In this document: piece by piece, positions 60,740-64,000 of the stretch
Position numbering within the stretch: the stretch's first letter is position 1
Layout of the letters: each line of letters begins with the position of its first letter
From: Anaerolinea sp.
Lineage (GTDB): Bacteria > Chloroflexota > Anaerolineae > Anaerolineales > Villigracilaceae
Length of the DNA stretch: 64,000 bases
Reading direction: 5' to 3'
Assembly: GCA_020047815.1 (NCBI GenBank)
Contig: JAIFNG010000058.1
Location: 1-64,000, forward strand
Translations under genes and position numbers: made by a program
The notes under the pieces: generated by a model
Seen by the model: only the letters and a program-made list of their open reading frames with translations
Databases searched by the model: none
What the model was told of the DNA's origin: nothing

Positions 60740-62974
60740 ATGACGCTCGAGAAAAATTCACTTCTTCATGATCGCTATCGTGTTATAGAAATTCTTGGGC
60801 AGGGTGGCATGGGTTCTGTTTACCGCGCAATAGATGAAAATCTGGGTGTGGCGGTCGCCTTGAAAGAAAATCTATTTACGACCGAAGAATATATGCGTCA
60901 GTTTCGCCTTGAGGCAGTTATCTTGGCGAACCTCCGACACCCAAATTTGCCGCGAGTTTCTGATCATTTTGAACTAAAAGATCAGGGGCAATATTTGATC
61001 ATGGATTTTATCGAAGGGGAAGATCTGCGCAATCGCATGGATCGGCTTGGCATGATCTCAGAAGAGGATGCAGTGCAGATCGGTGCTGCAATGTGTGACG
61101 CGCTTGCCTACTTGCATAGTCGCAAGCCTCCCATTTTGCACCGCGATATCAAACCCGGTAATGTGAAGATCACGCCGGATGGGCATATATTTTTAGTGGA
61201 TTTTGGACTTGCCAAAGTATATCAGGGGGGGAACCAGGCTACCACAACCGGAGCGCGTGCCATGACACCCGGGTACTCTCCACCTGAACAATATGGTACA
61301 GCGCGCACTGATCCCCGGACAGATTTTTATTCGTTGGGTGCAACCTTGTATGCGGCTTTGACCGGAGTGATCCCTGAAGATGGGCTTGCGCGTGCGATGG
61401 ATAATGCTCAATTAACTCCGCTTCGCAAACGTAATACAAAGGTTTCCCGCCGTATTTCCTCTGCGATCGAGAAGGCGATGGCAGTTGACCCAAGTGATCG
61501 TTTTCAGAGTGCGGGGGATTTCAAGAAAGCTTTGCTTGGGGCAGGTTCTCAAACCCAACAAACTCCGGGTAATCATATTGTTGCACCACCTCCTGCTGAT
61601 GCTTTTCTGCCGTCTGATCCAAATGATGCAGTTGATTCTTTGACTACCCCCAAAGAGAAAACACCGACCCGTCAGCCTGCGGGCGTTGTCTCTTCGACGC
61701 CGCCCGTTGTTGCCGAGGAGCAGCCTTTTGTCTCTCCACTTAAAAAGCAAAAGGAGCGTGAGCGCAAACGCCGGTCTGCTTTGATACGTTTTGTACTTAT
61801 TTTAATTTTATTGGTTTTTGCGAGCCTGCCTTTTGTGGCACCGGGAATTTTTCCGAATAATTTCCGCAATGCAATTTCATATTTAGCGCCGACGAGCACG
61901 GCTACGCCATCTTCACTCCCCAGCCAAACACTCACCGGAACTTCCACCGAAACCCCCACTCCAACCCCCACTGCCACGTTAACGCCTGAGCCTCCAACTC
62001 CAACTTTAACGGCCACGAACACCCCATTACCCATCGTGAGTAGTACTGTGGGTGTTGAACCAACAATTGTGGATACCGCCATTCCCACCATTGATTTACC
62101 GATTCCCCTGGTTGGCGGTTCAGGACAGGTTTCATATGTGTCAGACCGGACTGGCTTGCCGCAGATCTATCTTGTTAACCTTGCCAGTCAGGCATTGATC
62201 CAAATGACCAATATGCCCGAGGGTGCATGTCAGCCTGCCTGGTCTCCAGACGGCGAAAAAATGGTTTTCATTTCTCCATGCAAGGGTATGGATGAAATAT
62301 ATTATGGTGCCAGCCTGTATTTGATCAATGCAGATGGCAGTAACTTGACGATGGTTGGCTCTGTTCCGGGTGGTGATTTTGATCCTGCGTGGTCACCTGA
62401 TGGCAGGTCGATTGCTTTCACTTCACTGCGTACCGGTCAGATGGAAATTTTTGTCTTGAATGTGGATGATCTGACATCCATGACGCAGATAACAAAAGGC
62501 GCAAAGAGTGTGGAGTCCCGCCAGCCTGCATGGTCACCGGATGGATTGCAGATCGCGTATGTAGTCAAGCGATTGGGCGTGTACCAGCTTTGGGTTATGA
62601 ATGCAGACGGTACCGGGCAAAAACAAATTGTTCGCAGTGGTGTGACGTTCTTTGATTATCTTCCCAATTGGTCACCCGATGGGCAGTTGATCTTGTTTAA
62701 TCAGCGCTGCGCTACCGCCTTCTGTTTTCCATACCTTATGAGCATCTCTGCTGTTGACCGTTCTGTAGAACAGGGTTCCTTTTTGAAGTTAAATATCATA
62801 TCGATAGAAGATGTGCAGTATTCACCGGATGGTTTCTTTCTCCTTTACGAAGGGGAGGAAAGTGATGAGAATAACGATATTTACTACATGACCGTTACGG
62901 GAGCAAACATTATTCGCCTCACAACTGATGATGGCATGGAATTTGACCCTGCCTGGAGACCTTCTGGAAATTGA
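60740..62974 (+). CDS. Ser/Thr protein kinase with C-terminal TolB/WD40-like repeats
   Basis: GQGGMGSVYRAID, HRDIKPGNVKI, DFGLAK; Pro/Thr linker; repeated PAWSPDG motifs. Confidence 0.96.
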   Translation: MTLEKNSLLHDRYRVIEILGQGGMGSVYRAIDENLGVAVALKENLFTTEEYMRQFRLEAVILANLRHPNLPRVSDHFELKDQGQYLIMDFIEGEDLRNRMDRLGMISEEDAVQIGAAMCDALAYLHSRKPPILHRDIKPGNVKITPDGHIFLVDFGLAKVYQGGNQATTTGARAMTPGYSPPEQYGTARTDPRTDFYSLGATLYAALTGVIPEDGLARAMDNAQLTPLRKRNTKVSRRISSAIEKAMAVDPSDRFQSAGDFKKALLGAGSQTQQTPGNHIVAPPPADAFLPSDPNDAVDSLTTPKEKTPTRQPAGVVSSTPPVVAEEQPFVSPLKKQKERERKRRSALIRFVLILILLVFASLPFVAPGIFPNNFRNAISYLAPTSTATPSSLPSQTLTGTSTETPTPTPTATLTPEPPTPTLTATNTPLPIVSSTVGVEPTIVDTAIPTIDLPIPLVGGSGQVSYVSDRTGLPQIYLVNLASQALIQMTNMPEGACQPAWSPDGEKMVFISPCKGMDEIYYGASLYLINADGSNLTMVGSVPGGDFDPAWSPDGRSIAFTSLRTGQMEIFVLNVDDLTSMTQITKGAKSVESRQPAWSPDGLQIAYVVKRLGVYQLWVMNADGTGQKQIVRSGVTFFDYLPNWSPDGQLILFNQRCATAFCFPYLMSISAVDRSVEQGSFLKLNIISIEDVQYSPDGFFLLYEGEESDENNDIYYMTVTGANIIRLTTDDGMEFDPAWRPSGN

Positions 62975-63224
62975 TCCATCATGAAAGGCATAAAAAAACA
63001 ATAACCCTGCATAACTGGAGTTTTGATTTTCTACCGGGGACATTCTGGTTACGCCGAGACTTAATCAGTCTTTTGGCGGTTTGATTGTTTATTCTGGGAA
63101 AATCCCCTACCCAAACGCTGGAATATGGTTTTTCTTAAGAACCATCCTGCTGCCAGCGGAAAATTTGTAACATTTCATAAAAATATTAGGTATAATACAG
63201 TACTAATAAAATAAAAAATGGCAT

Positions 63225-63338
63225 GTGCAGTTGAAATTCTCTCGGCGCAAAGGGTCAGCAAAACAACGAGGCATCACATTGAAAACCATCCAAGCTGGGC
63301 AATTTATCTTTCGACGGGATGTATATGGACCAATTTGA
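63225..63338 (+). CDS. Possible small basic ORF (37 codons, GTG start)
   Basis: VQLKFSRRKGSAKQRGITLKTIQAGQFIFRRDVYGPI in the frame other than the 63218 track ORF; overlaps the next gene start. Confidence 0.3.
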   Translation: MQLKFSRRKGSAKQRGITLKTIQAGQFIFRRDVYGPI

Positions 63339-63864
63339 GGAACATGCCTCAAAAGAAGAGTTTGCTATCTCATTATTCCAATCGCGAGAGAAAACAATCA
63401 TAGATTTAAATGACACTGTTCTTCCTGTAGCCATTTGTGATGAGCCTGAATATATTAGTTATACATGTATATTACTTCCCGGTATCCTTTCACACCAATT
63501 AAAGACCGAAATGGAAGGGTCCTTGCGGCAGCGGATGAAAGAGATTTGTACTTCATTCAACGGGCGAATTGAGTTTATCACTGTAAACCCTGATTATTTT
63601 CAATGGGGGTTGTCTGTGATTTCCTCTGCACAAATTAGTCAAATCATGCAGGAGATCCGGTACGGTCTTTCCCAAATGATTCTGTCTACTTTTGAGTATA
63701 TTCGCAGCGAGAATTCGGCTGACGATTTTTGGGCCACGGGTTACCTCGTTTTATTGGGAATGCGCCCTGATTTGGAAGATATGATCAAGCAATATATTCG
63801 CATATCACGCCGACTGCAAAACTTCTCCCTGCCTGATCTTCAGGATTTGCATGTGCGAACATAA
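63319..63864 (+). CDS. Y1 (IS200/IS605 TnpA)-like protein lacking the HUH motif
   Basis: Collinear with IS200 TnpA: LRQRMKEICTSFNGRIEFITVNPDYFQWGLSVISSAQISQIMQEIRYGLSQ...DDFWATGYLVLLGMRPDLEDMIKQYIRIS. Confidence 0.72.
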   Translation: MYMDQFEEHASKEEFAISLFQSREKTIIDLNDTVLPVAICDEPEYISYTCILLPGILSHQLKTEMEGSLRQRMKEICTSFNGRIEFITVNPDYFQWGLSVISSAQISQIMQEIRYGLSQMILSTFEYIRSENSADDFWATGYLVLLGMRPDLEDMIKQYIRISRRLQNFSLPDLQDLHVRT

Positions 63865-63884
63865 TACAATCCAGGATCCTTCAT

Positions 63885-64000
63885 ATGTCGAATATAACCA
63901 TAAAAAGAGCGGGCGAACTGCTAAGAGGAATTTTTGAAATCTTGTGGGATAACCCCGATGGATTAACCGCGCGGGAAGTATTATCGCGCATCCCGCAGGT
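63885..64000 (+). CDS. Truncated ORF, N-terminal winged-helix-like segment
   Basis: MSNITIKRAGELLRGIFEILWDNPDGLTAREVLSRIPQ..., open to the window end. Confidence 0.55.
   Translation, partial: MSNITIKRAGELLRGIFEILWDNPDGLTAREVLSRIPQ

Follow-up and report, generated by a model that had tools for sequence, protein, structure and literature searches.

We find that the 64,000-nucleotide window, the whole stretch of Anaerolinea sp. DNA analyzed here, ends in a conserved Anaerolineales signaling operon whose first three products, a TnpA-like protein (dTnpA), an Mrr-like protein and a TPR protein (TPR1), probably act as non-catalytic binding subunits that feed a two-component system. The window makes up the first 64 kb of contig C20 (108 kb in length), on which genes were read past position 64000; L003 is the C20 segment 56000-75000. 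ORF starts and alignments were generated automatically. The features of the locus are as follows.

63167..63196, + strand: promoter-like pair GTAACA-18-TATAAT upstream of the operon, a consensus match only
63225..63338, + strand: 37-codon ORF with a GTG start, judged a chance ORF
63319..63864, + strand: dTnpA gene, first of the operon, 181 aa, assigned by Y1_Tnp Pfam match, fold and motif loss
63885..64000, + strand: start of the Mrr-like gene (38 of 283 codons, Mrr_N winged helix), the rest lying beyond the window
C20 63885-64736, + strand: complete Mrr-like gene, 283 aa, Mrr_N and Mrr_cat
C20 start 64742, + strand: TPR1, TPR protein with an AAA+-like N-domain, gene 3
C20 start 66085, + strand: histidine kinase (HK), 7TM-PAS-GAF-HisKA_3 by Pfam
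C20 start 68229, + strand: RR1, receiver-GerE (LuxR-type) regulator by Pfam
C20 69136-69585 (L003:13137-13586), + strand: MraZ-like protein, between RR1 and RR2
C20 start 69601, + strand: RR2, second regulator, assigned by similarity to RR1 and not by Pfam
C20 start 70391, + strand: AAA ATPase, P-loop intact in sequence (GHRGCGKST)
C20 71668-74430, + strand: TPR2, long TPR protein, last gene

The nine genes run in the order dTnpA, Mrr, TPR1, HK, RR1, MraZ-like, RR2, AAA ATPase and TPR2, all co-directional, with gaps of 20, 5, 2 and -4 nt between the first five. HK carries HisKA_3 and HATPase_c and RR1 a receiver and a GerE domain, all matched above the Pfam cut-offs, which identifies a two-component operon. 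Both are canonical by Pfam when compared with LuxR-type systems (7TM-PAS-GAF-HisKA_3 kinases with GerE regulators), but here they are preceded by pseudo-enzymes and followed by the MraZ-like, AAA ATPase and TPR genes. The MraZ-like gene sits outside any cell-division cluster. In gene maps of loci from related genomes and of 45 named contigs that a scan of a genome collection had yielded, the nine-gene order recurs in ∼18 Anaerolineales loci, some contigs stopping before the last genes; named contigs with the conserved order are labeled Chloroflexi, Anaerolineae, Anaerolineales or Villigracilaceae. The co-directionality and shared order are far beyond chance, and from spacing and synteny we infer that the genes form an operon.

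Among 61 related genomes searched, 37 belong to the genus, of which 13 (the window's own included) have a full-length Mrr relative, and one more such relative comes from the wider order; a search with the TnpA-like protein located its gene directly upstream of Mrr in nine of those genomes. One operon lacks Mrr (G019) and another lacks an adjacent dTnpA (G023), so neither gene is indispensable. The genomes used are assemblies that differ in completeness, and most of the named ones come from metagenomes; absence of a gene from a genome is therefore weak evidence. Three loci (G026, G032 and L091) have a protein of 433–448 aa, with hydrophobic stretches and no Pfam family, inserted between dTnpA and Mrr; inserts of this kind belong to one sublineage (L052:8798-10099, L051:9103-10449).

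An earlier note on this DNA had proposed that a small basic ORF, the TnpA-like gene and a winged-helix ORF form one operon. This holds for the dTnpA-Mrr pair, which is part of the conserved operon in the ∼18 loci. The ORF downstream of dTnpA is not, as the note had allowed, an unrelated regulator in unconserved surroundings: the dTnpA-Mrr adjacency is kept in related genomes. The 37-codon ORF is literally present, at 63225-63338, but tblastn against the regions upstream of the gene in 15 related loci returned nothing conserved (best E 0.24, at scattered positions); we therefore treat it as a chance ORF and not as a gene of the operon. The TATAAT reported near 63190 was located at 63191-63196; together with GTAACA at 63167 it matches 10 of 12 consensus positions and is the top plus-strand match in the region, although the promoter scan returned only 17 sites compared with 11.7 expected by chance. 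Just upstream of the operon lies a serine/threonine kinase-like protein with repeated WSPDG-type motifs (60740-62974), which is outside the conserved block in the mapped relatives.

The TnpA-like protein has, by prediction, an IS200/IS605 transposase fold and is catalytically dead, as had been suspected. It matches Pfam Y1_Tnp (3.3e-11), and its AlphaFold model (pLDDT 79.5 on average, over 90 for most of the core) returned Y1 transposases of the IS200/IS605 and RAYT types as all 30 best Foldseek matches in the PDB (E from 1.7e-8). The target TM-score with 2fyx is 0.82; a PDB sequence search matches this entry only weakly. The HUH and YxxxQ motifs are absent from all 50 aligned dTnpA homologues. 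HUH is most often replaced by Y-[FL]-Q-W, the residue that binds metal downstream of the tyrosine has been lost, and the catalytic tyrosine is Phe or Ser in several family members. The window protein itself has Y-F-Q at the HuH position and YIRIS at the position of the catalytic tyrosine. Two ordinary TnpA proteins of the same order (L126, L127) retain HVH or HIH. The dTnpA protein thus shares its fold and Pfam family with IS200/IS605 TnpA and TnpA_REP/RAYT proteins but has no HuH and no Y---Q or Y---NP motif and is fused to or encoded with signaling genes. An IS context was not apparent; no tnpB was found among the annotated neighbors of dTnpA loci. It cannot be filed as a TnpA-Y1 transposase, yet is clearly derived from one. 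The core-domain analysis in a survey of the TnpA-Y1 superfamily was limited to sequences with both motifs (PMC6006769), and a dead family would therefore have been left out. dTnpA is the fastest-evolving part of the operon (37–48% identity).

The dTnpA domain also forms the C terminus of a receiver-Roadblock-dTnpA protein, mostly of 500–580 aa, which is encoded immediately upstream of polA in the genomes inspected across the order:

L058:5359-6969, L059:6993-8591, L118-L123 and L125: fusion gene upstream of polA, no Pfam family spanning the whole protein

Its receiver domain (PF00072, 1.2e-7 in L136) has a conserved Asp54 and Lys102, and the middle domain resembles Roadblock/LC7 at a score below the cut-off (PF03259, 1.3e-3 in L123). 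A profile search of a 201-genome sample of the phylum finds full-length fusion matches confined to the order; outside it the search was swamped by ordinary receiver domains, so that only this confinement of the full-length matches is usable. We found no description of a receiver-Roadblock-TnpA protein in the open-access literature, and the polA-side fusion possibly outweighs the window operon as a finding. In a dTnpA tree with the two ordinary TnpAs as root, the polA-side fusion takes the basal position, and all stand-alone copies, the window's included, nest inside it; fusion copies adjoining Mrr (L087, L088, L110 and L113) branch just outside the stand-alone proteins. The dTnpA of the operon descends from the C-terminal domain of this polA-side protein. 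We infer that a transposase domain first became the output domain of a receiver protein, that a duplicate arose beside Mrr and that it finally split off as a gene of its own. An independent second origin of the dTnpA-Mrr linkage was considered and dropped, the Mrr tree placing all linked copies in one clade.

Stand-alone dTnpAs are found near kinases or regulators in L055, L060 and L043. In L055 (4133-12154) the gene is flanked by an HD-domain PAS/GAF protein on one side and by a histidine kinase with response regulators on the other, and its product was the top match of the window copy in the initial search (52% identity). Elsewhere (L130:3758-7528) the gene for a stand-alone dead TnpA of ∼190–237 aa precedes one for a DUF1521 protein and a motA-motB pair; a similar gene order is present in L124 and L131-L133 and, judged by gene lengths only, on contig C22 in the genome that contains the window.

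The fusion of the dTnpA domain to a receiver implies that it would be a signaling or adaptor domain and not a transposase. The strongest argument for a signaling role is the repeated association of dTnpA with receiver domains or two-component genes, in one case through fusion and in several through gene neighborhood. The domain could instead bind hairpin DNA or RNA uncut, as an autoregulator or a replication-linked sensor, with Mrr as a second DNA reader. The fold is that of hairpin-binding TnpA and RAYT proteins, including 4er8 bound to a REP hairpin, and the fusion gene adjoins polA throughout the order. No conserved hairpin was identified in an unsystematic search, however, and the net charge of the domain is near zero on average, a value that does not decide DNA binding. 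We regard this account as unlikely and favor the signaling or adaptor role.

The note had seen an Mrr-type winged helix in an ORF about 20 nt after the TnpA-like gene and had expected an effector domain past the window edge. Both are found: the ORF begins at ATG 63885 with Mrr_N (7e-6, 26.5 bits, just under the 29.5 cut-off), and its continuation beyond 64000 yields Mrr_cat (6.3e-9, above the Pfam cut-off) in a 283-aa protein. A PDB sequence search returned no match for it. Mrr-type restriction endonucleases from Stenotrophomonas and Xanthomonas (L100-L106) share both domains with the window protein (∼35% identity over the full length), but the latter has Asn and Ile in place of the catalytic Asp and Lys, so that D..QxK reads N..QxI, carries an extra residue before the Asp position and is embedded in a signaling operon. 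D..QxK is retained in 6 of 22 Mrr proteins linked to dTnpA and in 23 of 24 unlinked homologues, which come from Stenotrophomonas, Xanthomonas, Nitrospira and others (Fisher p 1.2e-6, a descriptive value since the rows are related). G023 is counted as linked, the rest of its operon being present though the adjacent dTnpA is missing. The linked copies form one clade with the orphan L089 (100/100 support), and intact standalone restriction enzymes form a separate one. Replacements vary by lineage (N/I, N/R, D/I, S/V, D/S, D/R, HxS and HxA), and parsimony needs at least four changes.

Two pairs in which both copies are dead have dN/dS values of 0.084 (G000/G009, with synonymous sites near saturation) and 0.094 (G012/G024), within an overall range of 0.07–0.26, and contain no internal stops; these genes are therefore not decaying pseudogenes. 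As the dead copies are under purifying selection, Mrr is maintained for something other than this nuclease site. Gene 2 cannot be filed as an Mrr restriction enzyme, yet is clearly derived from one. Six linked proteins keep D..QxK, and some copies may therefore still cut DNA.

These data bear on a role in anti-phage defense or type IV restriction, in which Mrr would cleave foreign or modified DNA, dTnpA would guide it or sense the target, and the two-component genes would switch the module on. The Mrr_N and Mrr_cat architecture, the patchy occurrence in the genus and the six copies with D..QxK agree with such a role, as does the similarity between the C-terminal domain and PDC-S02, a PADLOC candidate (2.9e-23). 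However, only the C-terminal half of the PDC-S02 model is matched and the nuclease site is lost, and the match does not establish defense. The window copy and 15 other linked Mrrs are without the catalytic residues, pairs of dead copies remain under purifying selection, the downstream operon encodes signaling proteins, dTnpA, the kinase and the AAA protein have no PADLOC match, and the intact standalone enzymes branch apart. The defense or DNA-processing role that the note had entertained is thus not the best reading of the locus: a defense role is not supported, and we consider an anti-phage or restriction module distinctly unlikely.

The third gene may encode a further pseudo-enzyme. In several genomes the N-terminal domain of TPR1 occurs by itself, with no TPRs attached. 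Its model, of good quality (pLDDT 86), resembles AAA+ ATPases (RuvB, ORC and clamp loader) at a weak Foldseek E of ∼1e-3, and no Walker A GK[ST] is found at the expected position in the alignment. An AAA+-like domain lacking recognizable Walker motifs is suggested by these comparisons, which are suggestive only. An inactive AAA+-like domain, TPRs and an active ATPase are shared with ternary conflict systems containing inactive STAND NTPases (PMC7159879, PMC8195603), but the operon has no annotated MoxR or vWA component. A MoxR-vWA/iSTAND system was rejected, neither partner being among the Pfam matches of the scanned operon proteins (a set without RR2).

In the reading that we favor, a transposase domain captured for signaling would have come to pair with a degenerating Mrr in a two-component operon. 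dTnpA, Mrr and TPR1 would bind nucleic acid or each other without catalysis and would join the AAA ATPase and TPR2 in a complex. Such a complex could sense or gate a state, which the 7TM-PAS-GAF kinase and the two LuxR-type regulators would convert into transcription. DNA or RNA is the natural guess for what is sensed, since nucleic-acid enzymes are the source of two of the folds. A bolder version, which we hold to be doubtful, would make the dead Y1 domain an order-wide signaling domain that was born in the polA-side receiver-Roadblock protein, where it would still read hairpin or fork DNA uncut, and that was later released, paired with pseudo-Mrr and came to report a DNA state (damage, phage or plasmid entry, or replication) to the two-component system. 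That a dead IS transposase and a dead restriction gene are decaying by chance upstream of an unrelated two-component operon would fit the missing catalytic residues of both proteins, but is highly improbable given the order conserved across ∼18 loci, the absence of internal stops at dN/dS 0.07–0.26 and the dTnpA domain kept beside polA across the order.

Taken together, an Mrr or TnpA annotation at these loci does not imply defense or mobility. What has been published on the TnpA-Y1 superfamily, non-mobile RAYT branches included, is based on sequences bearing the HuH and Y motifs (PMC6006769). An order-wide dead family, fused to a receiver and spread into two-component and stator-gene (motAB) neighborhoods, would demonstrate that a general signaling module can arise from a transposase fold, and the erosion of Mrr catalysis in the dTnpA-linked lineage offers a natural experiment in the conversion of an enzyme into a regulator.
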